Shown here: piece by piece, positions 2,301-35,111 of the stretch | Position numbering within the stretch: position 1 is the first letter of the stretch | How the letters are laid out: every line of letters starts with the position of its first letter | Source: Ceratodon purpureus | Taxonomy: Eukaryota; Streptophyta; Bryopsida; Pseudoditrichales; Ditrichaceae | DNA length: 64,000 nucleotides | Direction of reading: 5' to 3' | Assembly: GCA_014871385.1 (NCBI GenBank) | Contig: CM026426.1 | Span: 18,547,935 to 18,611,934, forward strand | Notes under the pieces: model-generated | Databases searched by the model: none | Seen by the model: only the letters and a program-made list of their open reading frames with translations | What the model was told of the DNA's origin: nothing | Translations under genes and position numbers: made by a program

Positions 2301-5300
2301 ATGGGAAATTCAAGGAATCAGCAAAGGCGCGGTGGAGTAGGCATCTTGAACCAGCGCAGAGAGCACAAGCTGTACAAGAAGAGCATATACGACCTGATGT
2401 CATTCTTGCAAGGGAACGAGCAGCTGAGCGTCAACGGCAATGTCGGGCCAACAAGCGCTGCTTGGAGGAAGCTTCTAGAAATCTTCCAAGGAGTGACGAG
2501 GGAGCACCATCGCATGATCTGTGGAGAAGAGACATCACGAGAGTCTCCAACAAAATTGTCCAGTTCATCGTTGAGGAGTTTGAAAGGGTGAGACGGGGTC
2601 CTGATTTCAGGGTGGCTATGTTGGAGTCGATGCTTCGGAATAACATATTACTGCCGCATTTGCCGCAGTACTTCTCTTGCCCCTCGGAAGCAAGAGCTGA
2701 GTATTCCTTCATTCAGAGTTACAGGACCGAGTTAGAATCGTTGAAGATTCCAACTTCAACAGAGAAGTTGGTTAGAAAGACAACGCTACTTGAAGCAGCG
2801 GTGTCCAAGGATGTTCCTGGGGTCAGAGCTCTATTAAGGGTCCTCGACACAAAGGCAAGTAACATCTCCAATGCAATTCAGAGGCGCCAAAATCTGGAAT
2901 CCACGGGTGCCTCAATCTTCACCTTGGCCAAAAGGAGAAAGCAAGAAGGCTTGTCGGACAACACTAAAGTTCTAGTGAACTTGTGGTGGACTTCTGAAAC
3001 CCGTGTGAGTCCTAATAAAAAGGATGTAACTTGGAAGAGGTTGGGGCCGAAGATATATGAGCATCACCCTACACATTTCCTCCTAGAATCAGTGGTACGT
3101 TTTGAACTCCACATCCACTGTCCAAGTATTCGGTTATAATGTTGATGAAGTATTCCTCATACTTCACTTTACCTTGTATATATTTTGTGGTGTGTTGTTG
3201 AACTACTTTGACAACGTCTGTATATTGTGAAAAGTATCCATTCGGTGTAGGGTTCGACAACATAGTATCTTCTACAGGATACAATGTTGTTTGAGGTGCA
3301 GCGGATGGGGTACAAAGTAGACCCCACATACTATGTATACTCTAATTTACACTTAGTAGTATATGTTTGATTGTGAGTTATACATGTTGTAGTATAATAG
3401 ATAAATATCATTGTATTTGTAGTGTTTCTTAGTGTATGCATTGCCTATGTTGAGTAGCGTTTATGTATCGTTGAATGATACATAAGTATATAGCATATAC
3501 TTCTCACAGTCTTTCTGCATCCAACCAAGTATGTCGTTGTAGACTTCTAATATGTATATAGTACTATAGTATACTCTGCGATATAAGACAGAAAGTATAT
3601 TCATTGACCTAAGATGCCTTATTTGCTTTTACAATTTAAATATAAATTGAATGTGTTTTGCTCACATACTTACCTTCATTGGACATTCACGGTTTTGTTC
3701 CTTTAGTAGTCGTCTTTTTACTCTCGAATCTGTATGGGGCATGGAGACCAGCAGATAGGATTCAGTGCATTTGAGAGATTGAAGCCGTTTTTTGTGAAGA
3801 AGTGTGGAGACCAAAATGTTTGTTGTTGCAAGTATCACGTAGAGCTAGACTTGCTCAGGGAAGGGTTGAACAGCATGAGAAATGCCACTAAGGGATTACA
3901 TGCCTCCATCTCTTGCGCTTGTGACTGTCAACTCTGTATCAATGCCTCCACATCAGAGTGTTGTGCTTTAGATAATAGTTTTAAAGGGGTGACTATGTTA
4001 TGGAAGCAAATTGTTTGTCCTAAGGCAGAGACTGTTGAACTTCACAAGTTGGAATGTCTAATGGGGTTGTGTGGGGACTGTGGTGCAGATAAGCTTCCAC
4101 TTTGTCCTATGGAAAGAGCAAACTCGACCTAGACTTTGAGATGGAGGTGTTTTGAGAACGAGTTTGTTGGTTTCAATGACAACAGAGAGCCTCGGAAGAA
4201 AATTAAGGAAGTGTTTAAAGAAACCTTGTGTTATGATTTCATTCAGTATTTGTTGCCAAGATTGCAGAAATTTGTGACCCATAATTTTGTTGCTAGATGG
4301 CAAGATATGCAATGCCGGAAAAGTATAGAAACGTTGCCTCATGATGTTGTTCTGTCTCATATAGACTTCGCTGAAAATTACACGTTTGAAATGCAAAATG
4401 AAATACAGTCTATGCATTGGCAATCTTCACAGGTAACGATTCTAGTGCACATAACCTATCGCATGGATGTGGCTACAAGAGAAATGAGGAAAGACACTCA
4501 TTTTTATGTCTCTGATGATCGCACTCATGATACTTTATTTGTCCAGCACTGTTTGCTTCTCCATTGGGCTTAGATGGAATCTGAAGGGGTTCACCCCTCT
4601 CGGCATTGGGTGTGGAGTGATGGGTGTGCCGGGCAGTTTAAAGGGGCCAGATCTATGTATTTTGTGAGTCGTTATCCTGGACTAGCGGGGGGGTGTGAGA
4701 TGACTTGGAATTTCTTTGGGACAGGGCATGGAAAGGGCGAATGGGATGGGGCAAGAGCTGTGGTGAAACGGGCTCTTCGAACAGAGCGACTTCATAATCC
4801 AACCCGGAAGTTACAAGACGCAAAGGACGTTGTGGAGTTCCTACAAGAGTCCATGTCAGGTCTAGTTCAAAGTTCTGTTCAGTCCAAGAGAACCGTATCC
4901 TATAGACACTTTTATAATATCAAGCCGGATGATGTGGACAGGACACATGTACATGGATGCGACACAATTCCAGGTTCAAGGAATTTGCATTCTATACATG
5001 CAGTGTCACCAGCAGACCCTACATTGTTGATGGTTAGAGAGCTAATTTGCTATTGTGCGCCATGCATTGATAGTGACTGCCAATCATGTGAGAATGCCTC
5101 ATATGTTCAGTCCAGGAGGGTTGTGAAATTAGCTCCCACGAATGTTTCTTTCGTGAGGGACCAAATGCTACCTGGACCACAAGAAGGAGGTGATACTGGT
5201 GATGAAGAACCCTGGGATTATGAATCCGATGACAAATCGCTTGGAGGTCTGGTGAACATCGCTGACAACTTTGCTGTTCCAGCAATCCAAGGCAATGAAG

Positions 5301-5617
5301 AAGGTGTTGAGTTTTACATCCTGCAATGTCAAAAAGAGAGACAACTTGTGAGGAAGAACTTCAAGTGCGTATGGGGTGGAGAGTTCGAGCGTGGGCAATA
5401 TGTGATTGCAGGAACATACTATCAGAAATGGGGGAACAGTGAGAAGTCCTTTGTATATTTGAGGAATTCTCAACTTGCATATATTGATGCTGATGTAGTT
5501 CTTGCATGCAAGTTCAACATGCTACCCGCTCTTCACAGAGTGAAAGGGGATAATTTTGTGTACCAGTTGACAAATGAGAGTATAGAGGTCATTAGGACCA
5601 GTCTTCAGGGCTTGTGA
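2301..5617 (+). pseudogene. Type-1 DDE-like transposase, copy A (two exons)
   Basis: Aligns along its length with the copy at 24,319-27,621. Exon 1 is 2,301-3,094 (donor GTACGT); exon 2 runs from about 3,734 to 5,617. The start ATGGGAAAT (M-G-N) is shared with copy B. In order the protein has a charged helical N-terminus, a Cys-rich stretch (CCCKYH, CDCQLC, CxDC), then the core with three acidic blocks: HIDFAENY, WSDGCAGQFK and GHGKGEWDGA. It ends in a second Cys cluster (about 5,050-5,095) and a conserved beta-rich domain (DNFAVPA, FYILQC). The blocks look like a DDE transposase; the exact superfamily is uncertain. Damage: a one-base frameshift near 2,335, TAG at about 4,130 and TAG at 4,571, the last replacing a Trp found in copy B. 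It converges on the SUVR-like gene at 6.1-8.7 kb. Confidence 0.75.
3095..3733 (+). other. Intron of type-1 transposase A, GTAC/TATAC-rich
   Basis: Lies between homologous coding blocks. It starts with GTACGT and is dense in short GTAC, GTATAC and AGTATA words, as is the equivalent intron of copy B (25,117-25,730). No other gene is seen in it. Confidence 0.55.
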
Positions 5618-6140
5618 GCACGGTAATCTTTGATGAACCATAGAATATGATCCCTTGTTACTCAGATTATTGATATTAATGTGACCGGGGTCTCAACATC
5701 TCCTGTGTATAGTAAGTTTGTATCTGACATTTAGACTCGGATTTTGGATAATGGGTTTCCATTTTCTTCTGTTGCTTTTAACGTTTTCATTGGAGGCCTT
5801 TACAAACATTCAAAGTTGCAGCTCTTGGTTTCATTTAGTTGATGAATAAGTTAGTAAATTCGACTATTTAATTCTAGAATTTGGTATCAAATTTCTAACA
5901 TGTGGGGTCTTGTACAAAATCTAGAAGTGAGTGTGTGTTCTTATTGAAATATTTGAGTGTAGGTACTAGTGAAATATCGTAAAGAAGTGCACATATCTCA
6001 ATCAGGTCCGGTGCACAAAACACATAGAGAACCAAACAAGACCCTAACAGTTTGTAGTTTACAGTCAGGTATAATTTACTACGTCTAAGTCATTGAGGTC
6101 TTTCGACAAGCCAAACAGTCTCTTCTTCTCTAGGGCTAAT
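5618..6140. other. Intergenic gap between convergent type-1 genes
   Basis: AT-rich sequence between the stop of the transposase and the stop of the SUVR-like gene. No gene, repeat or structured element recognised. Confidence 0.5.
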
Positions 6141-8689
6141 CTAAACGGCGCTCATGTCCCTGCAGTACGGGCTATTGCAGCAGCAGCTGAACCACGAGTC
6201 TGAATTCTTTGAATCTTTGAAGTTAATGCCATAGTCCCAAGTCAGCTCCTCGCCTACCTTCACTTCCTCTTTCGTGGAAAATGCAACCTACTCACACATT
6301 CAAACAGGTATGCGTTGTAAATCTGCAACAAAAGTAAATGACAATTGAAAGCATATTAGAAAATCAATAAATCGTACTCACATGATAGTATTGTGATTCC
6401 ATAGAATCAATCTTCACCGGAATATCAATAAAATTTGCATCGTAACACCTGTAGAGCAACCAGAGCATGTTCATACACCTTGTTCATACCATGTTCGTAC
6501 ATAAAATTCAAAGAGATAGTTAAAACCACATGTATCACCTGTGGTTCAGGAAACGGGAGACGTTCTCACACTTTGTAGCATCCACACAAGGCCTCGTCAT
6601 CAGAGCGCCTATGTTCATTTCTCCAATCCGCATCTAGGTCCATCGCATACTTCGAATGGAATCGTCGGGTTGAAATCTCCTGGTTACTAACTATCTGGCC
6701 AACATATTCAAGCACAAAGGCACCCGGCGGGAGGTTCTCCAAAGTCCGAATACCCCACTCTTTCCTTGAGTTTGTCCAGAAGATCTGTGCCACCAAAATA
6801 GAACTTTAGGGAAACGATGAATGACAATTCTCATAAACTCTATAGCTCAGTATGAATCCTCTTGTATTAAACAATTCGACAAACCTGTAGTCTCCTAGCT
6901 AAACCTTGCTACACAACCTGGTTAGAGCAGTTCACGCGACATCCATAGTTCTCGCCACATTCCTTCAAAAATGTGCGAGATATATGGCCGCTGCACCTTC
7001 CGTTTGCCAATGCCACACAATCAGGTTCTTTGCAATATTTGTAGACGTCCTCTACCTCTCCCGCCTTTTCTCTTGTTGCCTTATCAATGACAACAAACAT
7101 TTTAGAAAACCTCCCATAACATAAAATAACCAAAATCACTTGGAAAAAGATGAGATTATACAGTCTCGTTGTTGTGTGGATGAAGTAGCCTATCTGCTTT
7201 GTATGGAGGTAGCCCCCTTGGATAGCAGCACAGGGAAATCGCCTCTTCTTCGTCCTACAGCCCCGCCCACACTTCCACTTACAACTTTCATGACTCTCAA
7301 AAATCCCTAGCAACTCCAGATTTGCACTAGCCTGACGTACGCTACATCTCACATATTTAAAGTGTAGGGGGCCAACCCATGAACCCTCTCTGCACTGTAA
7401 GTCAACGGGGCACTTCTCTAGCCCCATAGAAAGATCAAACGAGAAGTTTCTTTTTTTCCATATCACAGGCCTAACAGAAAGATCAAAGGTAATTTTCTTT
7501 TTGTTTCCTGTTTCTCCCTACATCAACTTATTAAACAACGATTCAACCAACACACATACATCTGTAAGGGAGGAGGTCATTAAGTTAAAAAGCAGAGTCA
7601 ATTCAGTCCGAGCCACCTGAAATCAATGGTTCCTTGCGATCTATACATGTTGTGTGAGCGCCATCAACTACCTGTGATGGCGCCCACGGCACCCTAAACC
7701 ATGCGGCAGCAGCGCCAAAACCCCTAAACACATAACGACCTCAATTGAACGTAACTTAATAAACACACTTCTATGCTTCCCTATGTCTCACTACCTCCTT
7801 CCTGTTCGTTTTACTTTTGCTGGTGTGAGATGCTGGTCACCGTTGTCGGAGCCGTCCTCTTCATCTTCCTTGCCAGGCGAAGATATAGGTAGGTCCACCT
7901 TCTGCCTCTTCTGCCCCTTCTTCGCACCCCTCTTTTTATTCTCAACCTCCTTCCCTAGTCCATCCCCTCGAGTTCGTACCTTGACCCCCTTCGCCATGTT
8001 GCGTGTCGTGACCTTCAGAGTTGGAGCTACTTTCGCCACGGCCCTTGTCTTCACAGGTCCTTTGTCATCAGGTTCGCACACCTGAAACGGTGGAACCTTC
8101 CTCACGACTCCCTTATGGCCAAACTCGGTGTCGATTTCCTTTTTGCCCGCCCTCTTCAAAGATGAACCGCACAGACCCTGCCCCCTCAATGCTGCAATCT
8201 CTGCCCTCAGCTTGAGAACGATATCGTGTTGGTCACTAACGGCGGCTAAACCTCCACCACATGGGACTGCAACTCGGTCCGCAACTCGGTCCAGATCTTC
8301 GGCCGCAACTTCATGGAGGGGATGTGACATTCCCACGTCCATACTGAGCTCCATAAAACCATGCTCCACGTTAACTTCCTCGCCTCCAGATTGCATTGCT
8401 GGCGAAACTTCTTTGCCACTTCCTAATCCGAGTTCAGCATCCAATTCTCGGGGAACGAAACCCTCTACAGGACTATCCGGTTCACCTTGCGATTGGCGAG
8501 CACCTCCCTTCACCCTGTCGGAGTCAGGCGTATTCTTAGCAGTGTCCTCTACGAGATCTTCGGCATTACGGCCACGGCACTCCTCAAATCTTGGCTTCAA
8601 GCGCGAGTTCTTAGCCTGACTAGCCTCTCCAACACTCGAGACACCTGTACCCATGGAGACAGGCCCCGAAGGCAGTGGCTGGGATGAAC
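6141..8689 (-). pseudogene. SUVR4-like histone H3-lysine methyltransferase, copy A, carried by type-1 element
   Basis: Likely exons on the minus strand: about 8,689-7,810 (disordered, charged), 7,470-7,162 (start of pre-SET, Cys cluster CKWKCGRGC then PCAAIQGG), 7,110-6,885 (second pre-SET Cys cluster), 6,784-6,539 (SET: EWGIRTLE, LEYVGQI, ending NHR), 6,448-6,382 (CYDANFIDIP) and 6,287-6,141 (ELTWDYG and post-SET Cys cluster ending YCRD). All joins have GT-AG sites and keep frame. The NHRC-x-DANF and ELTWDYG blocks are those that bind AdoMet and form the knot in SUVR proteins, which methylate histone H3K9 in the nucleus. The single lesion seen is TAG at 6,909-6,911 where copy B has Gln. The first exon is not found. 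Pairing with a transposase is repeated in copy B. Confidence 0.75.
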
Positions 8690-9300
8690 CTGTAAAAATA
8701 CACAACTCACACATATTAATGCCTTGACTGAAACCAATAAGTTAAAAAAAACATCTCAGCGGGGTATGCGATTTCACCACTAAAGTACTGAATATACTAC
8801 ATGGTAGTATGGAACACAACTTCTGAAAGTCCGTACACTTATTCCAGGTGTATTCTCATACTCCAAGTATATCATATTTTGGTATAGTACATAATAATAA
8901 GGTATGAACCTACACTGCAATAGACAAGCCCACATATACTATAGGTGTGCTCTCTAACATTTAAGTACATCTCAATATACTACAGCACATTAAGTAAGAT
9001 CTCAGCCTACACTTAACTAGACAATGTCTTATACTACAGGTGTGTTCTTGTACTCGATAGTCCAGTATTTGATATACTGTACTATAGTAAGTATGGTCTA
9101 AACTTATACTTAACTAGGCAGTAATACACTATATTCTCGTAGTGGATACTCTAGCATATCAAAAACATACATAGCTGACTGCTAGAAGTCTATACGTGTA
9201 CTCATGTAGGGTACAGTGCCAGACTTTTCCCTATCCTAATACTTCTACTTAACACATATGAATTAACTCCACCCTGTATGACCCTAAACCCTGAACTCTA
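8690..9300. repeat. GTAC/AGTACT-rich segment upstream of SUVR copy A
   Basis: From about 8,790 the sequence is packed with short words such as GTATACT, AGTACAT, ATACTAC and GTACTC. The same texture occupies the matching position in copy B (30,770-31,440). It is probably intron or subterminal DNA of the type-1 element. No gene seen. Confidence 0.55.
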
Positions 9301-9846
9301 TCCTACACTCTTGTCATTAGAGAAAATTTGAGGTCCTGGGATGCCCAAATCCGAAATTGGAATATCCGGATTTTGTCAAAATGAAAATTGCCAAGAAATT
9401 CCACATGCACTATGCCATGGTGGAGTATAAGTCGGTGACATCAGATTTTCAATGGGTGGGAGCCAATGGCGGATGGTGGTCCTGGATAATGCTTGTACAG
9501 TGAAAAGATAATGGAGTGTCCTTGTTGGGAGTGGGGTGTACCTCGGTTTTGCGGCCTTGGTTGTCCTTGGTGGCAACACCCACACATGTGTTGGGGCCGC
9601 GTAGTGGATGTCCTTGTTGGCAACACCATCACGCGTGCTGGAGAGTCGAGACAGGTAGTGGCGCCGGAATTCGATGAACCTTGATGTGACCATAGATGGT
9701 CAACGGTGATTTTGGGTGGGAAATGTGGGATGATTGGTTGTTTGAGTTTAGGAAGAATCAGCTTGCAACTGTTGCTGTGATGTTGTTGCTAGTGAGGAAC
9801 AGTGTTGAAATTCTTTGAATCGAAAGTTCTTGAGGTAGTTGGAAGT
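9301..9846. other. No supported gene; short TTGGTGGCAACACC-like words
   Basis: Overlapping open frames on both strands carry no motif. The text GGTGGCAACACCCACAC (about 9,570) recurs in modified form near 54,940. Confidence 0.45.
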
Positions 9847-12187: not shown

Positions 12188-12275
12188 ACGCGTGAAGTGG
12201 AAACAAGCGAAGTGGAAACAGAGTGAAGTGGAAAGACCATGGAGTGGAAACAAAGGGGAAGTGGAAATGTCCATG
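12188..12275. repeat. GAAGTGGAAAC minisatellite
   Basis: About six imperfect copies of GAAGTGGAAAC(A) with variable spacers, just outside the 3' end of the coil-RING gene. Confidence 0.7.
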
Positions 12276-12462: not shown

Positions 12463-14408
12463 CTAAGGGAAACCCTCCACGGTCGATATGCTCTGCTCAA
12501 CCAACAAATCCAGTGACACTGGGGAGGAATGTGGCACTGGTGGCAACTTGCTAGTACTTGGCTCGTTGGAAGAACGGCTTGGCACGTCCTCTGCAGCTGT
12601 TGGGCATGGTTCAACGTCCCGAACAAGGCTTGTACCTTCCTGGAGCCCCCTCTTGAACTCTTCTAGCTTTTGTTTTGTTGTTTAGAGGGCAACACATCTA
12701 GCATTAGTACTTATTTCTTTAGAGAGACAACACGGTTCCAAACAAACACATGGACAATTCCGGCACATTAAATCATAACTAAAACAAGCATGATACTAAA
12801 CAAAAAAGAACCTAGGCTAAAATTCTGAAAAATGCAGGGAGCAAAAAAACACTAAAACTTACTGTGATGCGCCAAGGTTGCAACGGCCACATTGACAACC
12901 TCACCGTGTATGCTGCCAGCGGGTCGGCTAGCAAGTGGTTTGGGATGTGGGAACGCTGGAATAAATGGAGAAATTGGTGGTTGAGGCAATGGACCCTTTA
13001 CCTTGACCTTCGTTTTGGCCACCTTTGGAGCTGGTCGACCTTGAGCATCGCCGGCATCTTCTCTCATTCGCTTCACAAAGCCAGAGTCTGGTAGACTCGA
13101 TAGACATTTGCCTTTGCTGTCACGAGAGACTGGACCAGAGAGCTCCAGCCCATCAAACCCCCATGATTCCAACCAACTTGCATCACCAAGTTTGCCGCAA
13201 AGAGGGCAATTGCGCAGTTGAAACAAAGAGGTAATTGCAGCATCTACACGCTGAGTCAAGGTTAATTTTTAGAAGGACGCCTGCTTCAGACATATTCTTT
13301 CCAACATGGCGTTTTGGCTTGATAGAGTGCCGGGCAATTCTCTCAGATGCACAATTCTTCTCGAATTGGCGCAGCTCCTGTTGGGAACTCCGGTAAGCTG
13401 AACTGTCGCACTCTAAGGTTGATGCCAGCGTTGCTGCTTCCTCTTGGGCGGCCTCCACTGCGTCGTTGTTGGCAGCAATTGCTTTGCTGATCTTCCGTTG
13501 CTCCTTGTCTACATCTGCCTTCTCTTGGAGCTTTCCGGCTATAGCAGGCTTCTTGCTCCTTCTCCGTAGATCTTCCTTCATAGAGTTCAACCGCTCATCC
13601 TCGGTTTCCAACGCCATTATCTGGGCATGCAAACCGAGGTGAGCTAACTTCTTCTTGTCTAGCGTAGATGCAGATTGATGGAGTTTCGAAGTCTGCAACT
13701 GCAACTCCTTAAGCAATGCATCCACTTTCCTAGCACCGGTGCCAACACCATTGTGATGATAATACGTTGCCACCGCCGAGATGATGCCCGCCATCTCTTG
13801 CTTCAACGCCGGAGGACTCAGCTTCTGTGGGTTGTTGGCAGCATGGGCTCGGCGTTCTTGATTCACCTTTGCAGCTGCAGCAGCCCAGTTGACGTTGCTG
13901 TCTCGCCCACCACTGTAGTAATACACACATGCGCGTAGAAAAGTTTGGCTAAATGCTTTGTTGTCGGGAGCATCGCCATATACTCGTTGGTACATCCTCA
14001 CATACATATCCCGTGCTTTGGAGTCTTTACACCGGTCCAGCAAGTAGCGCGTCTTGTTTGCACCCTCCCTCGGCGGCCAAGTCTCCTCATATGTGTTTGC
14101 TGGAACCATCTTCTCCGTGACTTCTTTGGGCGTACAACCTTCCATGCAAACTCCTACCACTCTATGGAAGAATTCTTGGTTGTGGACAGCAGCTGATCGA
14201 CCCAGCAAGCATGGTGCAGCTAGACAAGCTTCTGTCTCAAATTTGTTGGAATCCCCTCTAAGTCAAATGGCGCTTCCTAGGTAGACTCCGTAAGACACTG
14301 TGATGGCACCTCGGACTTGACAACTATTGCCTCACGGTCACTTGCCTCAATTGGCAAAACCGCTTTTCCTCTGTTGGGACGATGGGATCTCTTGCCCAAG
14401 GAAGACAT
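12463..14408 (-). pseudogene. Coiled-coil RING-like protein, copy 1
   Basis: ATG at 14,408 (MSSLGKRSHR). Order: short basic N-terminus, globular domain (DLEGIP at about 14,255; WPPREGANK; YQRVYGDAPDNKAF; VNWAAAAAK), long Glu/Lys coiled coil (about 13,760-13,290), then the end of a RING-like finger (CPLCGKLGDASW, WGF) near 13,200. A donor near 12,860 leads to a last exon at 12,666-12,463. Lesions: TAG at about 14,281 where copy 4 has Trp, a frameshift near 14,235, and loss of the first half of the finger near 13,255, where the frames also change. The homologue at 45,845-48,118 keeps the full finger. Function unknown; RING-like fingers often act in ubiquitin ligases, but ligase activity is not shown by the sequence. 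Confidence 0.6.
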
Positions 14409-14910: not shown

Positions 14911-14989
14911 GTCTGTTATGTTTTTTCTGGTCATTGATCCACCCCCTTGATCCAATATATCATCAACAATGATTATCCAAGTATTCTGA

Positions 14990-16725
14990 TGAAGCATAAA
15001 GTATTTTGGCATTGAGATCTTTTAGAGAGATATTTTAGAATTAGTACTGTTGGGAACTCCGGTAAGTTGAATTGTCAAGGGACTCTTGGATTTAGTGACA
15101 TCTCTAAGGGGCAAAACAATTTATTTAGATTAATTACTGCCTAGGAGGTTTTTGTGAAATTCATGTTTGACTTGAAATTTAAAGTGATGAGTATCGTAAA
15201 AACTGATTCTGTATTTTTACTGACTCGTCTGACTTCAAAATTTTCTACATTTCTTCGAATAGTTTCAAACATTTATTTTGTGCCTTAGCATGCTAACGTA
15301 CATAAATTCTGCATCAACATCCTCTACGATTTATCAGAACTGTATTCAATATATACTTCCTCATAAGTCCATCATTACAATTCATCCACGTTTAGATTAA
15401 CCCCTAAAGGACAATCATCCACATTTGGGCATTTTTGGAATTTGGGCATGTACCTATGAATGCAATTCACATCGGGATTTTCTGAAATTTTAATTGAAGG
15501 TGGGCCATTTGGAGATCTTCGTGTGGCTATTTTTATTTTTCAATTCCGACATCAGGATCAAATGATATGAAGGTTTAAGTGTCAAACGCTGCTCGTAGGG
15601 CAGCTGCTGAACCACTGTGAATGCAGCAAATTCTGCCCAAAACTGCCCAAAACTGCCCAAAATTGCGAAAATCTGCGAAAATCTGCCCAAAGATGAAACT
15701 TTGAAATTCCACCAATAATTGAGATTTTGATATTATTCAAAAATAAAAATTTCTATGTATAGAGAAGGCAGTAGAGCATGTTCCCACCGTTCGGATTTTT
15801 AATCCAAATTTTTTCATATGCTATTTTTATTGTCAAAAAAAGGCATTTGTTTGTCAATTTCAGTATACCCCCTAGCAAAAAATGATTATTTGGGCAACCT
15901 TCCACAACTTTTTTGAATATGATTTTTTCAATAAAAATAGCTAACTCAGTCTTCTTTGATGTGCATCAAAACCGCCAAAATCTATAATGCAAAAAAATGG
16001 TTTTTTGGGCCTTCAAAACTCTGCTGTTCCTTTTTTGCGCAGGGAAAAAAAACTTTATTTTCAACTTTGAACGTTATGATCTTGCAATTGGTGAGGAATG
16101 AGTGTGTAAGATTTGGTGGACATGTAGACATAGAAGTTAGCTACAAGATCTTTTGGTTAGATGTACTAATTATGACCCCAACTTAGCAAAATCCACCTTG
16201 ATTTGAAGAGGGGCTGTTTTCAGGCAGTTTTGATGAAAAATACCCTCAGAACTTTAAGGGTTAAACCTCCAAGATTCTACACATAGTAATTTCAAATTCA
16301 AGATAACATGAAGAACTATTGAATTCTCAACAGTATGAGCACTTCGAAACAAAAATGACAACTAGGTGATAAAGCCGATGACTGAAAAGAATGATCAGGA
16401 GGTGAATTCAAACCGTGCTTGCTTTTTCAATTGCAAGATTGCTTCAGAAACCAGCATGAAGTTCAAGCAAGACATCTACGTTCAAAGTAAAATGTGACCA
16501 CGATATGTACCAAATCCAAGAATGGTGCTAAAATACTGAAGAGTCTCTGAAAACCCTACATCAGTCAGAGGTAAAGAAACACCTAAGGGCCAAGATCATA
16601 GCAAGTGTACCAAACACAAAACTACTGAAACACTGGTAGACTGTCCTAGCATACAATAGGTGTAGACAGTTACATAAAGAAAATTGATTGTTTGGTGCTT
16701 CATTTCTAGAGTCCCTGGCTTCATT
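14990..16725 (-). repeat. Duplicated segment, reverse complement of 48,300-49,345
   Basis: 14,990-15,395 matches the reverse complement of 48,945-49,345, and 16,275-16,725 matches the reverse complement of about 48,300-48,745. The match continues into the coding tail at 16,726-16,890. The two copies carry different sequence in between (see 15,396-16,270 and 48,749-48,940). Confidence 0.8.
15396..16270. mobile_element. Candidate non-autonomous TIR element (~0.87 kb)
   Basis: Occupies the site where the duplicate at 48-49 kb has a different 190-bp insert. Its ends are TTAACCCCTAAAG and, inverted, TTTAACCCTTAAAG. It contains no coding sequence. Target duplication is not clear. Confidence 0.45.
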
Positions 16726-18480
16726 CTACTGTCCACGTTTCGATTCAAGTTGGCGAAGCTGCTCTTGGGAACATAGGATGGCTGAACTGTCGCGCTCTAT
16801 GATTGATGCCAGCTTCATTGCTTCCTCTTGGGTTGCCTCCAACGTGGCGATGTTGGCAGCAATCGCTTTGCTGATCTCCCGTTGCTCCTTGTCTACATCC
16901 GCCTTCTCTTTAAGCTCTCCGGCTCTAGCAAACTGTCTGCTCCTTCTCCGCATATCATCCTTCATGGAATTCAGCCGCTCATCCTCTGTTTCCAACGCCA
17001 AAATCTGGGCTTGCAAACGAGTTTGAGCTACCTTCTTCTCCTCTAGTGCAGATGCAAACTGCTGGAGTTCTGAAGTCTTGAGATCCAACTCCTTTTGAAA
17101 TGCGTCCACTTTCCTTGTACCAGTGAGAAAACAAAACTGTTAGCCAATAATTGCAAGAAGCCGCCATTTCTACAAAGAATGCAAATACTCTACATGGCAT
17201 ATCAAGGAGTAGTAAGTGTAACTTACACAAACTTGAACTTCCACCAGCTGTTGCCTCCAAACTCTTCTTCACGGTGGAGACATCCTCCTCCATCTCTGCT
17301 GTAAGAGGGAGCCCAAATTGAGCCATCCAAGCCCCAGTGAAGGACGTACAACAGCGTGGACAAGTGGGTCGCTTGAACTCTAGCAACACTGCAATGCACG
17401 TTGGATGAAATCCACACCCACAAGAACCGACAACAATAGCACACGCTACAAATCCATGTTGCCTACATCCTGCGCACAGTCTCAACTTTGACTCTGTTGG
17501 CAACTCAGGCAATGACGTCCCTGTTGGATACAGAAATGGAGCTCTTGCTTGCAGCATCAAGGTGAAATTCTGAAGGCTCAGCAACTTCTCCTTGTTGGCA
17601 GCAATGGCACGAGCTGCTCGCTCAACTGCATTGGCAGCCTCTGGCAACTTGCTAGTCTCAATGACTAGTATGGATTCCTCCGTCTTCTGTTGCGAATCTG
17701 ACATTTCAATGAGCCTCTCCAATAAATCCTTTCCCTCACGCCACTTCTGAGCGGACAGCTGGTTGGTACCTCTTAGTTTCAGCTCATTTGCCACTGCATA
17801 AGCTTCATTATACTCCTCTTGAATCGCACTCATCTGTTCGCCATTGGAGAGAAGTCCTTGTTTCAACTTAATCACAGTCTGCAGCAGATCGTCTTGGACA
17901 GCTATTGCTTCTTCCTGAAGCTTGTAACTATCTCTCTAGGCTGTCTCTACCTCGCGTATAGCGTGATCTCTCTGCAACTTAGGCGATTTAGGTCGTTTAG
18001 AGGAGCTCCTCCTGAACTCCAAAGTTGCCGCTTTGTTGGCAGCAACGACGGCGCACAAGGAGGCCAGTTGCTCCCGCATCGCCACAGGGCCCAATTTGTG
18101 GCGGTTTAGGGACTTAGTGGACATTCAAATTTTGTGCCTCTTCACAGCCTCTGCCACCCAATCAACCTTGACATTGTGCACAAATGTCGCATAGGAAGCC
18201 CGTAAAAACCTCATAGAAAAGGAACTGTTGGTCGGGTGGCCTCCATAGACAAGCCTGTAGTGCTCACAGAACTGTGCGGCTTGGTCCTGGTCAACACAGT
18301 TGTCATTTCAAACCTGTACTTGTCTGATGAAGGCGACCACTTTGTGAGAATTTCGGCGTCAGAATCAGCTGCCACCGTCTGGACTTGGTCTACCTCATGG
18401 GCGCCACAGCATACATTTGTTGTTGAAGATCTTCCGGAATTCCATCCAACATAATCGGCTCTTGGAATTCATCGCTGCCA
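16726..18480 (-). pseudogene. Coiled-coil RING-like protein, copy 2, chimeric
   Basis: Reading on the minus strand: a degraded N-terminal domain at 18,480-18,130 (LDGIPEDL, then RLVYGGHPTNSSFSMRFLRA and VDWVAEA in shifted frames), TGA at about 18,123, basic linker and long coiled coil (18,124-17,600), and a complete RING-like finger (17,480-17,330: CAGC, SCGCGFHPTC, CPRC) with the tail WMAQFG. Beyond a segment with a possible intron (17,225-17,115) a second coiled coil at 17,109-16,726 is nearly identical in type to that of copy 1 (LETEDERLNSMK) and ends at QLESKRGQ stop. The double coil suggests fusion of two paralogues, or misplaced exons after rearrangement. Confidence 0.55.
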
Positions 18481-19850: not shown

Positions 19851-19879
19851 TGAACAAGCAAGGGAACACTTCACACCTT

Positions 19880-21490: not shown

Positions 21491-21496
21491 TATCTA

Positions 21497-21520
21497 TGGG
21501 TGTAAGTATGCTAGACCCTA
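21497..21520 (+). repeat. Left terminal inverted repeat of type-1 element B
   Basis: GGGTGTAAGTATGCTAGACC plus a few bases, matched inverted at 42,720-42,743; preceded by CTAT. Confidence 0.65.
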
Positions 21521-22079
21521 GTACTTTTTGAGTCACAGTACAGTATACGGCATAGTACCTTAGCTTTGTACTTTGATAGAGCATGATGCCTCAATGTTTT
21601 TGCAAGTCTTGATCTGAGAAAGGAATAGGTAAGATGTCGAAGGTCTTATTATCACTGTTGAAAGGGTTGTAAAACTTAATTGTTCATGTTAATTTTGTAC
21701 TTATGACGGGTTCACTTCATATGTCCCAAGTACAAAAAAAAAGGAAAAGTACAGAAATATTTGTTTGGGATTGCATGGATTTAGCTGATTATCTCGCAGG
21801 AAACAGGCAATGGAATGGCCTTTTCAAAGCCGTTAGAAGATTTGAAGCGGGATTACATATTTGGTGTGAATTTGCATAATTAGTACTGTACAGTTGGCGG
21901 GGGGAAAGTGTATGTAAAATTAAGATTTCTGTGGATCCAAGCGCGGATTTTGGGTACCCAATGGTTGTTCTACAATGGCTAATCAAAGAATACGTGAAAA
22001 AACAATTTTCCCGCCATCTCATTTTATACATGCGATTGCATTCAATCTATACATAAGGTACATAGAGTACATAATGTAC

Positions 22080-22635
22080 AGAACTCCGGTAGATCTTGAC
22101 CGTTCGTGTTGAGCATCGCTCATCTCCACCATCAATTTCTTGCCCCTAGATCCTACATTCCAGGACTCCAAGCGCCGTCAGAGGTTGCCTTGTGTTCTCC
22201 CTGCCACTTTCACACCTCTTCCAGCGTCGAGACCTAGTCAAGTGTGCGTCTTTCTTCTGCTTTGCCTTTCTTCTACATTGCTTTCGCATGCACAGCTGTG
22301 GGTGCGCACCAGTGCCGTAATCACTCAACATACCCTTGTCTTAGCACCTTCATCTTCTACTAGGTTCTAGGTTCATACAATTGTAGGGGTTTTGTTTAGA
22401 GAGAATGAGAGAGCTCAAGGGGTGGTATTTGTATGAGACTATTAGAAGCGGAGGAGGATCTAGCACGTATTTTACAGGTTTGGAAAAACCTACCACACAT
22501 TTGGCATTAGCATTTGTATATTTAATCATGACGTTTTAATTTCTAGATACTTATACTGTTGTTCAACTTGTTCAGGTGGGAAGTCGATGTAACGGTGAAG
22601 TCGAAGAACTTTGAGAGGAATCAAAATCCGAGGAG
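22080..22635. other. 5' region of type-1 element B without a supported gene
   Basis: GTAC words at 22,050-22,080, then a more GC-rich stretch with a 76-aa open frame (22,140-22,370) that shows no motif. Confidence 0.4.
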
Positions 22636-22935
22636 ATGGACAAATTGTTCGACCCTGGTGATAGACAGAAGGCCATACTAAGAACAGCATCTCTTGAAGA
22701 AGACGACGTGGAACTATGGTGGGACAAGCGGGAGTTGGAGGAGCATTTTCAATTCCTTGCAGACGTTTTCGGATTCGAGAAGCCCTTCGAGAATCATGTT
22801 GCCTTGGTGAATGCCAGCGTACTAACCACTCTGCTCCTCATCCGCATCGGCTTGGAACATGAACGGGAGCTTGCGCAAGATGTAGACATCTGGAACCGTG
22901 TTTTTGCAATGTTGTTCCATTTTTATATGAGTTAA
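22636..22935 (+). CDS. Small hypothetical protein, 99 aa
   Basis: ATG at 22,636 opens a 99-residue frame with balanced, protein-like composition (DKLFDPGDRQKAILR near the start, several acidic helical segments, a hydrophobic stretch LTTLLLIRIGL). It lies between the left terminus of the type-1 element and the transposase, on the same strand. The equivalent part of copy A is outside the window, so conservation cannot be tested. Function unknown. Confidence 0.35.
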   Translation: MDKLFDPGDRQKAILRTASLEEDDVELWWDKRELEEHFQFLADVFGFEKPFENHVALVNASVLTTLLLIRIGLEHERELAQDVDIWNRVFAMLFHFYMS

Positions 22936-23593
22936 GGGTTATGTTGATTTTTTGTTCTCTCCCGTAGTGATTACATACTAGATGTGTCTCCAATCTCCCC
23001 TTATAAATGAGGTTCTGATTAGTTTTAGGATATTTTTGTGGTACCTGACGCAACTACACAGAAGCTGTCAAGGGTCCATTTTCAATTTTAACAGGTGTAT
23101 ACTCTGATCGAGTTGAAGGATCACGCATTTTTCTAAGTCACTGCAACTACACTGCTTATTGTTTTGCGGATGCACATTGTTACAAAGATACATTCCTCTA
23201 CATCATATTGGCCGTTTAGAAATTCACATACTGTAAAAAAGATTTAAAGGCACCCTTTCGGATTATCCATATTAGCTGGCGAGAAATCCACAAGATTCAT
23301 TTATAAAGCGCAGAGCTTAAAATTAATAAATATCGTCCACAGGATCAATATTTATCCGCAACATCAACGTCCACTGGTCAATTCGAAGGAAATGACAACC
23401 AATTAAAATATTTACACTCGAGGCTCTTATCAAGCAACACGATAGGCAGTTAATTTAGTATGTGCAGTGTGTACACGGTGTGAGTACATGCAATTTGTAC
23501 ATGCAAAGAGTACACTAAGTTTCCACGTACAGTGAGTACATTCTCTGGTAACGGATAATCAAGATCCTATTTTCTAGGGGCGCCGAGCCTAAG

Positions 23594-24175
23594 ATGCCGC
23601 CGCCACTAGCAATCCCTTGGCCTCCACGTTGGCGCCGCCCTGGATTCCCTCTTCTTTTTAGCCTAGTCGTTGTGCTTTGCTATATTCTGTGTCTACTCGG
23701 TGTCGCTTGGAATTCAACTACAGTTTGTGCATCGCTCTTGTTTTGTTTCCTTGCTAGAATATGCGATTTACAGAACTGTTCGCTAAACAATGTCTAAGTC
23801 CAGGCAGCAGTCCCTCTTTGTCCAGAGACTGATTACTTTGTACTTCCCTGCAAAAGGGTTCCCTCCGGGATTGCTCTCCGCTAGTACCGAGATAGACTCC
23901 CTCCTATACACAGTGGATAGCGAGACTAGTGACTCTTGTTACGTTTCTGAAATCCCGGTCTCTAAACAAGGGAACCCTGACTATTATCTAGGCAAATGCA
24001 ACACCGTGTCTGAAGAGTCCCCGAGGCGTGCACTATTTGCAACCGCAGTTAGTCTAGATTCCTATAGTAGCTACGAGTACCTGCCTTCTCTATCTGACGT
24101 ACAATTTTCCATAGGTTCCGCCACTGATAGCAGCGAGTCCATTGCATTTAGGCGATGACAGGAAACTACAGTTTG
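23594..24175 (+). CDS. Two short ORFs in a candidate 5' exon of transposase B
   Basis: A 67-aa frame (23,594-23,797) with a hydrophobic, possible membrane segment (FSLVVVLCYILCLLG) overlaps a 122-aa Ser-rich frame (23,790-24,158). A GTAAGTTC donor follows at about 24,176, and the transposase start lies just after an acceptor at 24,302. These frames may be upstream ORFs in the leader exon of the transposase, or an unrelated small gene. No family recognised. Confidence 0.3.
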
Positions 24176-24318
24176 GTAAGTTCTTTTCCATTTTCATGTG
24201 GACGCATTCAAATTGTTTCATTTTCATCGCCTCATTGATTATACTTCGCTCATTGCTATAATCTGCACTCTCTATGTAGTAATCATTTTTATGTGTTACC
24301 AGGTTCAGGGTGTCAGTT

Positions 24319-27300
24319 ATGGGGAATACTGCAAAGAGGCAACGAATGCGAGGGGGTGTTAGTCGGCCTGGTCCTGCAGCTTGGGCTGCTGCAGACAAGA
24401 TGGAGGAAGAGCAGAGAGCTGTATCTAGAGTGACGGCTAGAGCACGCAAGGCTCTACAAAGAGCACGTGAGAGAGAGAGAGAGGAGGAAACACGAGAACT
24501 TGCTTCAGACCCTTTACATGATGACACACATGATCAGATGTCAGTGAGGGAGTTGAATCGGATCTCTTTGCGAATAGTGAAGTATATTGTTGGAGAGTTG
24601 AGGAGTTGTCCCGGTCCTTCTAGTAGAAGAGATGCTGTTGAGAGGGTCATGAGGCACAATGCTTTTTGGCCTCTATTACCGCTATATTATCCTAGGCCTC
24701 AAGAAGAAAAGGTCACCTACAGTTTCATAGGGAACTTTAAGAACAAACTGCAGTTGGTGAAGGTGGCAAACTCAAATGAGCGATTAGCAAGAAAGAGTGT
24801 TTTATTAAATGCGGCAATAAGCTTGGGAGTCGATGGAGTGTCAGCATTGTCACGTGTACTGGATACTTCTACGTCTAGCATCAATATAGCCATGAATAGA
24901 AGAGTGTATGGGTTGAGTCCTGAAGAGATAGTGCCTCCGCTTCGCCTCAATCGACAGAAGAGAGGAGGCTTGTCAGATTACGTCAAACTCTAGATTGAGA
25001 TATGGTGGAACGGGCAAACCAAGGTTTCGCCAAACAAAAAGGACGTTGTTAAACACAGGGTAGGCAGAAATCTGTGGGTGGAGCCTCATCCTACGCACTA
25101 CCTTTGCGAGACACAGGTAAGACCTTCCACTGAACATACATGTTGTACATTCATTGTTTACCTCTTCTGCGTTTTCAACCATAGTGTACAAGGTCGTCAA
25201 TACCATCCCAATATATAGAGCAATTTGTACTTGATTTCCTACCAACCTACCGTCGAATGTATTACCGTGGGCACTAAGTACTGCTACTATACAGAGTGGT
25301 ATCACTTGGTTTAGGGGTTGTGTATATTAAATACTTTGCTTCTTGTTTGGTACTGACTTGGAACTCCTTACTTGTACTTATGTAGTTGACGATGTACGTA
25401 AGTGATATTTGTGTTAAGTCCTCTGTACTGGAGATGTACAACTAAGATTAAATGTATGAACGCCAAGATACTATTTGTATATTTTGTATTCACCGAGTGT
25501 AGGAGTCTTCTATGCTCCGTACATTTCGTTATTGTGTTCGAAGTACCGTTGTATTTCTTGTACTGGATGTAAATACAAACACAAAGATAGTGTACTTAAT
25601 ATAATCCTTTGTATAACTTGTACTTGATTTCAGAATATATTGTACCTAGGTTTATTACTTTTAGTACAACAAGTGTCACACTTTTGGAAAATGTATTTGT
25701 GGTTGACAGAGAACATTCTTTTTGCGTTTTATGGAGGCTCATCCAGAGTGCAACGTGCGACAGAGAGCCTTCGAGAGGTTGAAACCATGGTGGGTTCGGA
25801 AATTGAAGGAACGAAATACCTGCTGTTGTATATACCACGTAGAGATGGACTTCATGAAGGTTGGATTGAGCCATCTCAGAGATCAACTAAGGGGATTGCA
25901 TTCAAGGATCATGTGCAACTGCCGATGTCAAGTATGTAAGGGTGAGGCTGAAGGGGCTTGCCATGCACACGAGGCAATTTATAAGCGCATTACAATGATG
26001 TAGGAATCTTGTGTGTGCCCGAAAGGAGAACTGGATGTGTGGCACAAGCTTGATTGTCTCATGGGAGAGTGTCCAGATTGTGGCTTCCATTTATTTCCCC
26101 TTTGCCCTCTCGAGTTGTCTAGTACTGACTCGTTTCTTGTGAAGTGGAAGTGTTTTGAATACTATGAGGTTGGCGTTGATAAGAGGACTGGAAAGCCCAA
26201 GAAGCGGCTTAGAGAGGCTTTCAGGGATACTCCTGTGAAAGAATTTTTGTTGTACATGGAGAAAACAGTGTCGACGTTCATCACCCACAACTTTCGAGCA
26301 AGGTGGCAGGATGAGCAATGTCAATTAATGATGAAGAACGTCCCGGAGGGAGTACTTGTGTCTCATATCGATTTTGCAGAAAATTATAGCTTTGCTATTC
26401 AGAATGAAGTGCAAAGTTTGTACTATTTCAGCACGTTCGTAACCATCCTTGTCCATATTACAATGTGGAAAGAAGGGGATACCGTAATGAAGCAGACGCA
26501 CTTTTACATATCTGATGACAAAGATCACGACTCTGCTACAGTCCAACATTGCTTGCTTTTGCATTGGGATTGGCTAGAGGACTCAGGATTTATTCTAGAG
26601 GAACACTGGGTGTATAGTGATGGTTGTAGCGCTCAGTTTAAATGTGCAACAGCTATGTACTTTGTGGCTAGATATCCCATGCTCACCAAGGGATGCAAGA
26701 TGCGGTGGAACTATTTCGAGACTGCTCATGGGAAGGGAGAGTGGGACGGAGCCGAGGCGGTCGTGAAGAGGGCGTTGAATGCTGAGCAAATCCAGGATCC
26801 TCTGAGGCCATTGGCGAATGCTGCACAAGTTGTCGACTTTCTACAAGTATACTGAGCGGGTTTTGAGTTCCTACAGTCGGACAAAGATCAGTACGGCTCC
26901 ACCCCTCTCTCGTGTATTTTGGCACATTGGAGAGAAGGAGGTCGTCCATAGTGACAGGAGCATCCGCTGCAACACTCTGCCAGGATCTAAATCTCTCTAT
27001 TCCATCATGGGCTTCTCTGAATCTGACCCTACTCTTCTTAGGACACGTGCTTTATCTTGTTTCTGTATATCATGCGTTGATGGCGATTGGGCTAATTGCT
27101 TGAACTCGTCTCATGTGCAGGGCTGGAATGTTGCTAGGCTGGTTCCGAAGAGCGCTTCTTCAGTGGCTGCACAGATGGAGGAAATGGACGATGAAGGTAA
27201 TTGGGTGCATGATGGCGTGTCGTTGGTCTTAGGAGACCTGGTTGAGGTTGGCGATAATTTCATGATACCTGCAGAAGAGGAGAATGAAGACGGCGTGGAT

Positions 27301-27621
27301 TTCTACATCTTGCAGTGCACCAGATCTAAGTTTGAGATACAGGAGCCCCTCGAATGTCCATGGGGGGGCGTCTTTGCCGCCGGGGATGAAGTTATTAGGG
27401 CAAAATACTTCAAGAAGCACGGACGTGGGGATAAAACGTATTTATTTTGCAACGAAGCAGTGGAGGCGCATGTCGATGCACATCTAGTCAGAGCATGCAA
27501 ATTCCCCATGGTACTTGCTTCCCATAGGGCCAAGGGCTCTCCAGTATACAAGATGTCCAGCGAGACCATGAGAGTATGTGAAGATGCTTTGCGCGATTGG
27601 TGGACATTCCATGAGGAGTAG
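24319..27621 (+). pseudogene. Type-1 DDE-like transposase, copy B (two exons)
   Basis: Homologous to copy A at 2.3-5.6 kb. ATG at 24,319 (M-G-N). Exon 1 ends at 25,116 before GTAAGA; exon 2 runs from about 25,730 to 27,621. Blocks in order: Arg/Glu-rich helix, Cys clusters (CCCIYH, CNCRCQVC, CPDC), HIDFAENY, YSDGCSAQFK, AHGKGEWDGA, CISC, and a C-terminal beta-rich domain (GDNFMIPA, FYILQC, CPWGG). Damage is light: TAG at about 24,991 (Leu in copy A), TAG at about 26,000 (Trp in copy A), and a one-base frameshift near 26,846. The gene converges on the SUVR-like gene, exactly as in copy A. Enzyme activity is inferred from the acidic blocks; the superfamily is not certain. Confidence 0.75.
25117..25730 (+). 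other. Intron of type-1 transposase B, GTAC-rich
   Basis: Starts GTAAGA and shows the same GTAC/GTATAC-rich texture as the matching intron of copy A. No other gene seen. Confidence 0.55.
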
Positions 27622-28001
27622 TAAACCACAACTTAGAGTGTCTCTGGATACTACAAGTACTCTTAATGTAAAGAACTTAGTGCTTTTTAATACTTTATGT
27701 ATTTTAATGTAAATTGGAATGTATAATATGTACTAATTTTGGGTACTCTTTGTAGTATTTGAATGGCTCCTTCTGATATTATAAGTATTCTTTGGATACT
27801 ATTTGTATTAATTTTTTAATTCACTGTGAGCATTTATTTTCTAAGTGGATTTGTATTTCAAAACTTCAGTCCTTTGTTAGACAAAAATGCAACTTTGATA
27901 GATCTTTGCAGTCAACTACTGTAAGTACTTCAATGCAGCACTTAGTGTTTACAATTAATTAGACGCAAGATTAATGTCACTTAGTATTTAGAAAAACTCT
28001 T
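27622..28001. other. Gap between convergent genes, TACT-rich
   Basis: AT-rich with repeated TACTAAGTACT, AGTACTC and GTATTC words. Likely shared 3' region of the transposase and SUVR-like genes. Confidence 0.45.
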
Positions 28002-30624
28002 TTACTCTGATCTATGAGATACGACAAAGGTACTACGCCAGTCCCTACAGTAGGTACTCCCACACTTGCATGCAAAGGAAGGCAAATCAGGGTCTTCGTA
28101 GCTAAAGTTGCAGCCATAGTCCCAAGTTAACTCTTCATGAATCTCTATGTCTCGATTTGTGAAGAATGCAACGTGGTAAATGCTCTTGTCCCATTCGTCA
28201 ATCTGCACTGGAACTTTGATCAAGTTGGCATCTTCACACCTAAAGAAACACACATTTTCATTAGACATTATTAAACAAGTTCAAACAATTACAGTAATGC
28301 ATATGAGCCGGCTGGATTACAAACCTGTGGTTTACAAATCTTGCCACGTTACCAAAGAATTGGGAATCCAAGCAGAGCGCAGAGTCGTCATCAAGTTTGG
28401 CTTCGGTGGCCCAATTAGCATCCAATTGCATTGCGAAAGATGGTCCAGGTGGGGCTACAAGATTTCTAAGAATCATCTCAGAATTTGTGAGAATCTCCCC
28501 AACCAACTCAAAGAGAAACAGACCTTTAGAAATGGGTCTACTCGCCCTCACCCCCCATCCAGTCTGGCCCGTATGGAAAATCTCTACTGGATACTTCATC
28601 CCTTGTTGAACAACACGATTACCACATTCATTGTGGCAGCCACACCTAACACTACATTCTCTAATGAACCTGCGTGATCCACGATTACCGCACAAGGCAC
28701 TAAGCCTCCTCTCCACATAAATCACTGATCCACCATGTGAATAGAGTTTTTTTTCCTCTTACAACCAAGGGAGTTGTTGCCACCGTGCTGAAGGTACCGA
28801 TCCTTGAGAATGCCACCCTCCTTATAGGCTATATCTCCACCTGACTCCTTTCCACATTCACAAGGCTGCAAAGATTTTAAACAATCCAGAGTCCTACAAT
28901 TACAACACTTCCCAAGCTTCGGAAAGAAAAGGCTCAAATTCAGAGAGGCCTTCCCATGAACCCTACTGTTGGACATGTAGCGGAATGGCGACATATATGC
29001 ATAGGGATTACAGACTGGAATAGGAAGAGCCTCCATCCCCCTTGACAAATCTCCAGGATCAAACCAGGGCATAGCCTGGTATGGGTGCCAGCCCCAAAAA
29101 AAGCCAAAAAACAGTCAAGGGGCAAGAAATTTACAATTACATAATAACTACAAGTTTTCCACCATAACTCTGAACAGACAGTACATACATACACCCGCAT
29201 GCACGACAAAGCTCAAAGCCGCACCAGGAATACAGAATTGAACAATAACAGAAAAGGGAGTGAATACCTCCGGCTCCTTTTTCAGCAGCCTCGTTGCAAG
29301 ATAGGAGATACATCACAGTGGCTACATTCCATAGCCACATACAGAATCTACTTTTTTACAGACTTCTTCCTCTTCTTTACCTGTGAAACCGCCTGTAGCT
29401 TCTCTTGCGACCTTGTCATAACTCTACCTAGTCCAGCCGGAGACTTTACCGGGGCTTGAGGACAGTCACTGTCATCCTTAGAATCTTCCCCAACCTCTAC
29501 AACACCCTGCTGAAAACCCTGCCTTGCTGCCAAATCCGTGAGCTCTAAGAGAGTGGTGGTCTTCGCACTGTATAGATTCTCTATTGAAGTGGGAAACTCT
29601 TCTTCCTCCTTCTCTGGTTCCATCTTCTTCTTCCTCTTCTTTGATCCACTTGTGTTGCTCTTCTTCTCCATTACCCTCTCAGCATGCACCACATGTACAT
29701 CTTCCTCATCCTGTAGCTTGTCTTCCTCTTTCGTAGGCGATTTCTGTTCTCCGACCTTGTCAACCTCCGGGCCTACCTCCTCCATGTTTGGCACATCTCT
29801 AATCTTCTTCTTCTCACCCTTAATCTTTTTCTTTGCAGGTGACCTCTCCGATGTCTTCGACACTGTCTTCTCTGGTGTTCTGAAGATCTCCTCCTCCAGT
29901 GCTTCTAGTATTAGCTCTCCGGCCCCAACAGTTGTCGTCACTTCAGTCTTCCTTGTATTGCGCCCCTCCAAACACTCGGAACCAGGAACCTCCACTGCTG
30001 CTGTCGTCTTCGACCGCTCTTCCTCTATAGCAATCGTCACCGTTGTTGGAGCTACAGTCTCTTCGATCGGAGCCACAACATGCTCATCTCCAGCAATCTT
30101 CACCCTCAGCAGCTCCTGTGGGCTTATAAACAGTGGGTCACAGGACTTTAGAGTAGGCATACTCGGACCATCCTCTTCTTCCTCGTCTTCCTCCTCTGAA
30201 TCTTCACGCTCCTTGGAATCCACAGATTTCTCACCTTCAGAGTCCTCTTCCTCCTCACCTGAGTCAGTAGTTCGAGAAGAGGACGGCAGCTTCAAGTTTT
30301 GCGTTTCCCGTTCGTCACCGCTGGATGACTCATCTCCACTGAGCAGATCAGGCTCAGTCCCTTTACCTCGCACCGCACCCTTCACCAAACATTCAAAGAC
30401 GACCTCATCCACCTTTTGCAGTTTGGTTCTCTTAGTTTTCTTATTGTTAACCCTTCCCTTGCGGGTCACGTCCTTCACGGTGCGTTGCAAAGGGTTTAGC
30501 AACGCAGCAGGGGAGAGTCCAGGGCCACCCGCAAGAGAGCTTGTTGCTTGGCTCGCGTCACCCTCAGTAAAATGGCCTCGTGAATACCTTGAAGTAGGGG
30601 GAGCGATTTTCTGATACGACAGGC
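28002..30624 (-). pseudogene. SUVR4-like histone H3-lysine methyltransferase, copy B, nearly intact
   Basis: Exons on the minus strand: 30,624-29,381 (about 410 residues, very acidic and Lys-rich, disordered), 29,075 to about 28,325 (DLSRGMEALPIPV, pre-SET Cys cluster CCNCRTLDC, CECGKESGG; then CSVRCGCHNECGNRVVQQG, GWGVRASRPISKG, LVGEILTNSEM, ending FVNHR) and 28,239-28,002 (CEDANLIKVPVQID, AFFTNRDI, ELTWDYG, post-SET CKCGSTYCRD). The motifs are those of plant SUVR H3K9 methyltransferases. The only defect is a one-base shift near 28,747-28,754, a run of eight A in the coding strand; one more A would restore the frame. The copy lacks the intron that copy A has between the IDIP and ELTWDYG blocks. 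The first exon is not identified; a candidate lies at 42,305-42,637. Confidence 0.75.

Positions 30625-35077: not shown

Positions 35078-35111
<34 letters not shown>

Follow-up and report, generated by a model that had tools for sequence, protein, structure and literature searches.

A DNA transposon family of the moss Ceratodon purpureus with a SUVR4-like SET gene beside its transposase

Two related elements and their genes

The stretch of DNA analysed here (the window, 64,000 bp) corresponds to C6:18547935-18611934 in the 362.5-Mb, 151-contig assembly of Ceratodon purpureus, in which the genome sequence searches were made. It contains two copies, A and B, of a DNA transposon with terminal inverted repeats (TIRs) that encodes a transposase, a convergent SUVR4-like SET-domain protein and a third, RING-like protein. 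A preliminary description had recognized two copies with the same layout, at 2.3-8.7 kb and 24.3-30.6 kb. Six-frame reading found the two transposase genes, on the plus strand, and the two SET genes convergent with them at the places given there, and the common layout stands. However, the extent of both units had to be revised. B occupies 21498-42741, and A is not an intact unit but is split into two parts, approximately 1213-9290 and 55356-57824, by a 46-kb insertion that contains B. The main features are as follows.

21494..21497: target-site duplication CTAT, left of B
21498..42741, + strand: element B, complete at both ends; 21,244 bp when nested insertions are counted
21498..21519, + strand: left TIR of B, GGGTGTAAGTATGCTAGACCCT
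24319..25116, + strand: transposase B exon 1, interrupted by one stop in frame; start codon ATG and GT donor identified by eye
25707..27621, + strand: exon 2 of transposase B, decayed, containing the HIDFAENY and SDGCSAQFK blocks; left border approximate
28002..28239, - strand: last exon of SET B with CEDAN, ELTWDYG and post-SET CxCx4CRD
28325..29114, - strand: pre-SET and SET exon of SET B, one frame shift; 5' border approximate
29348..30611, - strand: N-terminal charged exon of SET B, without a Pfam domain above the cut-off
38002..38916, - strand: 3' part of the third gene of B, coiled coil; RING match below the Pfam cut-off
39177..39995, - strand: N-terminal domain of the third gene of B, without a Pfam match
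42720..42741, - strand: right TIR of B, a perfect 22-bp inverted copy of the left end
42742..42745: target-site duplication CTAT, right of B
1213..9290, + strand: left part of A; true left end lost, 1213 approximate
2300..3094, + strand: transposase A exon 1; 3' border approximate
3710..5617, + strand: transposase A exon 2, two in-frame stops
6141..8698, - strand: SET A gene, several exons, decayed
55356..57824, + strand: right part of A, 88.9 % identical to a sister copy over 2,473 aligned bp
55379..57068, - strand: third gene of A, RING-like end and N-terminal domain
57805..57824, - strand: right TIR of A, GGGTGAATGTACACTAAACC read inward

Homology of two further copies (C6:110.3 Mb and C12:16.19 Mb) to the window begins at 21498, the left end of B. 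When up to 2 mismatches were allowed, the B end matched the genome 65 times in forward and 67 times in reverse orientation, and a reversed control gave 0 and 0. Among the places listed, nine facing pairs of ends, identified by eye, are 14.4-15.2 kb apart and others approximately 12.5 to 45 kb apart. Of the 10 copies that were fetched from their end sequences, 8 have a 4-bp duplication, which differs in sequence from copy to copy; such a duplication also flanks B and the sister of A. Shared inverted ends and a duplication of fixed length (4 bp), two features of TIR cut-and-paste transposons, are present. The ends have the form GGGTG...CACCC, and the subfamilies are 11-14.5 kb long where measured.

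The left part of A can be aligned piecewise, from 1247 to 9290, with its sister copy (L070/L071). The sister, C6:45066452-45077559, is 11,108 bp long with both ends GGGTGAATG and an ATTT duplication. No convincing inverted ends came from the window alone: the best candidate for A scored 19.8, where 15 shuffles reached 18.6, and proved wrong in the comparison with the sister. A repeat at 1941-2196 and 50310-50598, considered as a solo end, belongs to the left region of A.

A and B represent different subfamilies of one element. Their plus-strand transposase segments are 33-59 % identical, and they fall into different subfamilies in a transposase tree (74 of 95 sequences kept). Both copies are decayed: both transposases and SET A contain in-frame stops, and the reading frame is shifted in SET A, in SET B and in transposase B. 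Many listed transposase copies elsewhere in the genome keep open frames: exon 2 is a 639-aa open frame in several relatives of B, and the part of transposase A at 4574-5614 is free of stops in 8 of its 10 best matches, the window copy included. The five in-frame stops seen by eye are all TAG, and recoding of TAG was considered and set aside, as the relatives are open at the sites compared.

The preliminary description called the transposase DDE-type. Among 30 transposase sequences, the Asp of the SDD and SDGC blocks never varies and that of HIDFAENY hardly does, but the protein has neither a Pfam match above the cut-off nor a PDB sequence match. Within Pfam, the 639-aa exon has no match to a Harbinger transposase at E-values up to 0.1 and none to a MULE transposase. 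MuDR elements have a MULE transposase and longer target duplications, and the 4-bp duplications found here also differ from theirs. Relatives of the transposase or the SET protein were not found in IMG/VR. One transposase relative lies on a truncated, eukaryotic-looking contig in a cyanobacterial bin (L001), which ends before the SET position.

The pre-SET, SET and post-SET blocks reported earlier were borne out: NHRC-x-DAN, ELTWDYG and C-x-C-x4-CRD can be read in both SET A and SET B, and Pfam recognizes SET in both (E-values 1e-16 for A and 1.4e-18 for the joined exons of B), with Pre-SET found in B only (3.4e-11). The pre-SET and SET exon of B is free of interruption in a 14,491-bp relative. 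The closest PDB sequences to the SET part are EHMT2/G9a, a histone H3 lysine 9 (H3K9) methyltransferase, and EHMT1, and SETMAR is among the PDB relatives of SET B. An N-terminal WIYLD domain is a feature of SUVR proteins; the search for it covered the 487-aa and 441-aa N-terminal exons and found no match there.

In a tree of 50 of 53 SET cores (three were too short and were dropped), with named plant proteins and no identified host SUVR genes as the comparison set, SET B groups with 23 relatives that are 56-79 % identical to it (support 0.998). The named plant proteins lie outside this clade, and the four SUVR4-named ones are 45-51 % identical to the SET B core. SET A is on a long branch apart from the clade, with weak support. 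This leaves room for separate captures or for fast divergence, and both a single capture followed by long co-divergence and repeated capture are possible. A relative of SET A, P0150 (77 % identity over 218 residues), is open where SET A of the window has two stops. SET and transposase relatives without an assigned genome position may be moss sequence data.

Recurrence of the gene set across the assembly

Of 1287 candidates found with a transposase B segment, 137 were scored as matches; a SET B exon gave 649 candidates with 150 scored, and the N-terminal part of the third gene 667 candidates with 123 listed. All counts given here hold for the listed matches. With 150 scored matches, the SET gene is anything but a single-copy gene.

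A listed SET match lies 881-3789 bp downstream on the opposite strand at 97 of the 137 transposase places, and none was found on the same strand or within 8 kb upstream. Random placement gave a mean of 0.36 pairs and a maximum of 3 in 1000 placements. The pairs, which account for 97 of the 150 listed SET places, are spread over 12 contigs. A plant-like SET sequence, P0098, used as query returned top places already among the listed SET matches, and 39 further SET places from this search brought the paired transposases to 107 of 137. The third gene is convergent and within 15 kb downstream of 55 of the 137 transposases (same strand 0, upstream 0), 49 have both the SET gene and the third gene beside them, and 74 of the 123 third-gene matches have a same-strand SET match within 15 kb on the expected side.

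Individual loci follow the same pattern. Within the fetched flanks, the last SET exon was found in 21 of the 22 loci of the closest subfamily, counting the window, in one of them only in part. SET A is present in all 10 fetched loci of the A subfamily, the window copy among them, and SET was found in two of three more distant loci. In eight more distant loci there was no SET match within 1.5 kb; among transposase ranks 23-40, 14 of 18 are paired with SET, some at longer spacing.

Pairwise DNA distances of the transposase and SET genes are correlated, both in the B subfamily (r 0.84, permutation p 0.0002, 19 of 22 loci usable) and in the A subfamily (r 0.91, p 0.001, 10 of 10 loci). Median ratios of nonsynonymous to synonymous substitution (dN/dS) are 0.21 for the transposase (29 distinct of 35 matches, 220 pairs; stops in 9 of 29), 0.39 for the SET core (5 copies, 10 pairs) and 0.40 for the last SET exon (17 distinct of 24, 127 pairs; stops in 6 of 17). 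As signs of recent movement we take a pair of copies on different contigs with 99.2 % identity over 6.6 kb, and four A-like places with equal score and frame length.

The suggestion that the SET gene is cargo of the element and not a chance neighbour is therefore upheld by the genome-wide convergent pairing, the common ends, the duplications flanking individual copies and the co-varying distances. The pair recurs at other loci, which the preliminary description had set as the check, with shared ends and 4-bp duplications where these were checked.

Several observations weigh against the picture of a silencing gene carried throughout a DDE transposon family. The pairs compared for dN/dS are non-independent, are restricted to dS >0.02 and include decayed copies. 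The VGE block has Q in SET A where SET B has E, and the two SET proteins do not form one group in the tree. The transposase, with its conserved Asp blocks, is at most a candidate DDE enzyme. Although most listed transposases are paired, 30 of 137 have no SET partner among the places compared, and the same is true of locus L074, where there is no SET match within 4 kb. Two of the 10 end pairs lack the 4-bp duplication. The unpaired copies, L074 and the pairs without duplication indicate that SET may be dispensable in some lineages.

The listed matches are concentrated on C6, which has 82 of the 137 transposases, 93 of the 150 SET matches and 93 of the 123 third-gene matches. C6 is 110.5 Mb long, 30 % of the assembly, and the other contigs that supplied fetched loci are 16-27 Mb. 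A review (PMC8000587) gives a 360-Mb genome for Ceratodon purpureus, with U and V chromosomes that exceed 100 Mb and make up approximately 30 % of it. From this we infer that C6 is the sex chromosome.

Known systems and the role of the SET gene

We classify the element, with high confidence, as a TIR DNA transposon with several subfamilies, in which the transposase, the convergent SUVR4-like SET gene and the third, RING-like gene occur together. The systems with which it is compared are described here as in extracts of the papers cited.

HarbingerS and MuDR elements of Phytophthora carry a SET histone methyltransferase gene (Kojima and Jurka 2014, Repbase Reports, cited in PMC12730594). They resemble the moss element in being DNA transposons with their own SET-domain histone lysine methyltransferase gene. 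However, the moss element has no Pfam transposase match, 4-bp duplications and GGGTG ends, as well as a plant SUVR4-like SET protein, a third RING-like gene and a moss host. Fungal DNA transposons that encode TET/JBP dioxygenases (PMC12730594) likewise have chromatin-modifying cargo beside the transposase, with the order kept in some families, but the enzyme oxidizes 5-methylcytosine and the superfamilies and hosts (fungi) are different. Retrotransposons of dinoflagellates and charophytes have captured cytosine methyltransferases (PMC5890265). These are also mobile elements with a silencing-type enzyme, and also occur in the green lineage, but they combine a retrotransposon with DNA methylation rather than a DNA transposon with histone methylation. 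In SETMAR of primates, a transposon inserted downstream of a host SET gene gave rise to one gene (PMC6326780); a SET domain and a transposase are again together, but as a single gene and not as mobile cargo. Plant SUVR4 shares the pre-SET, SET and post-SET blocks with NHRC and ELTWDYG, whereas the SET gene of the moss element is multi-copy, lies inside transposons and, in the N-terminal exons examined, lacks WIYLD.

Lanisha is a cut-and-paste lineage (Maumus, McDaniel and Carey 2020, Repbase Reports, cited in PMC12730594), and the Lanisha/CMCT group has mostly CA..TG ends, with C(2)C and H(3-4)H between the second D and the last E (PMC12730594). Compared by description only, the SET element differs in having GGGTG..CACCC ends; its transposase has a CISC pair, and reading by eye showed H(3-4)H in neither B nor A. 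The authors of Lanisha are reportedly also behind the Ceratodon purpureus genome work. Sola elements have a 4-bp target duplication, a length that agrees with the one found here; no duplication lengths were found in PMC4455052.

No paper that describes a SUVR-like gene in a moss transposon came up in a search that had Repbase Reports, the Ceratodon genome paper and most subscription papers outside it, and the family may already have been named in either of the first two. Transposon-borne SET genes are already known; what sets this one apart is the host lineage, the transposase, the ends and the three-gene cassette.

Silencing marks are usually viewed as a weapon of the host against mobile elements. 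Here, a numerous plant transposon family itself carries a silencing-type enzyme, with open frames in many copies, and self-restraint, camouflage or warfare between elements becomes directly testable through one gene family. Judged from sequence, the likeliest role of the SET gene is self-directed H3K9 silencing, to which we give a probability of roughly 45 %. The transposase would cut and paste the element, and the SET protein, whose catalytic motifs are under purifying selection, would methylate H3K9, most probably at copies of the element itself and in the regions around them. Its long charged N-terminus, or an interaction with the transposase, might bring it to these copies. The activity of resident copies, and the harm that they do, would then be dampened, a form of self-limitation, and the element could survive within silent chromatin, openly expressed only where a copy has newly arrived or escapes. 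This is the simplest reading because the catalytic core has been kept.

Next comes counter-defence, which we regard as unlikely though it deserves attention. The SET protein would then interfere with host silencing instead of silencing its own element, by competing with host SUVR/SUVH proteins, by methylating other targets or by laying a mark that blocks a stronger one. Transposon TET/JBP dioxygenases, Vandal proteins and SET genes are presented as counteracting silencing in PMC12730594, and the abundance of copies with open frames suggests that repression of the family is incomplete. However, an H3K9-type core under purifying selection is more simply understood as an active silencer than as a decoy.

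That SET, together with the RING-like protein, steers insertions to silent chromatin or is a cofactor of transposition, methylation being secondary, appears improbable. The order and orientation of the three genes are indeed the same in the paired copies from diverged subfamilies, and the listed copies are biased to one contig, but the catalytic motifs have been retained, and the bias, counted from listed matches, can be explained by a lack of recombination on C6.

It is equally hard to favour the idea that the enzyme represses other mobile elements, or host genes beside insertions, and so gains an edge in a repeat-rich chromosome. The window does contain nested insertions with at least two kinds of ends, and 82 of 137 listed transposases are on a contig that is 30 % of the assembly. 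Nevertheless, no choice of target is visible in the sequence, and nesting is normal in repeat-rich chromosomes.

Finally, from the window alone, in which two copies 22 kb apart might be a tandem duplication, the SET gene could be taken for part of a segmental duplication or for a host SUVR gene next to the transposase by chance. This is effectively ruled out by 97 listed pairs on 12 contigs, with common ends, their own target duplications and co-varying distances.

Self-directed silencing also invites a broader, rather doubtful proposal, namely that the element runs its own heterochromatin programme. An H3K9 methyltransferase with a RING-like partner, probably outnumbering the host SUVR genes, would have helped to shape the silent, repeat-rich state and the growth of the giant, probably sex, chromosome.

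Further features of the window

The remaining features of B are two insertions or expansions and two small open frames.

31476..34578: another transposon nested in B, with CATTAGGTGCAAA ends; missing from the two copies that span the site
34744..38406: stretch rich in tandem repeats, an insertion or an expansion within B; missing from the same two copies
22615..22935, + strand: small open frame of B that the 14.5-kb relative also has
23787..24158, + strand: small open frame of B with a PIP-box-like QRLITxYF stretch, kept in the 14.5-kb relative

The 14,491-bp relative of B, at C6:18.46 Mb, aligns with the window in pieces (21498-31471, 34576-34743 and 38407-42741), hence B in the window gained 31476-34578 and approximately 34744-38406. 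The genes of the former are related to those at 51.8-54.7 kb. The two small frames precede the transposase in both B and this relative. A diverged version of the second, with QKLITSYF, is found at L074:1836-2204, in the locus without SET. We take these stretches to resemble a PIP-box, and the frame might link transposition to PCNA.

The 46-kb insertion in A is itself an element, D (9315-55361), with CATTAGAGAAAATTT inverted ends. A transposase-like gene at 51.8-54.7 kb on the minus strand has CIYC and HICTLH, seen by eye, as in the EnSpm/Lanisha group in the extract of PMC12730594, and D fits the description of the Lanisha group better than the SET element does. Three coiled-coil genes with RING-like ends, related to each other but diverged, at 12852-14262, 16726-17935 and 46199-47758, lie outside A and B and are probably cargo of other nested elements. 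The stretches 15003-16877 and 48154-49343 are inverted copies approximately 98 % identical (pieces of 399 and 595 bp), possibly the ends of another nested element. At and beyond the right end of A, 57786-60136 contains pieces of a Copia-type polyprotein (Pol beta-barrel, gag pre-integrase and RVT_2).

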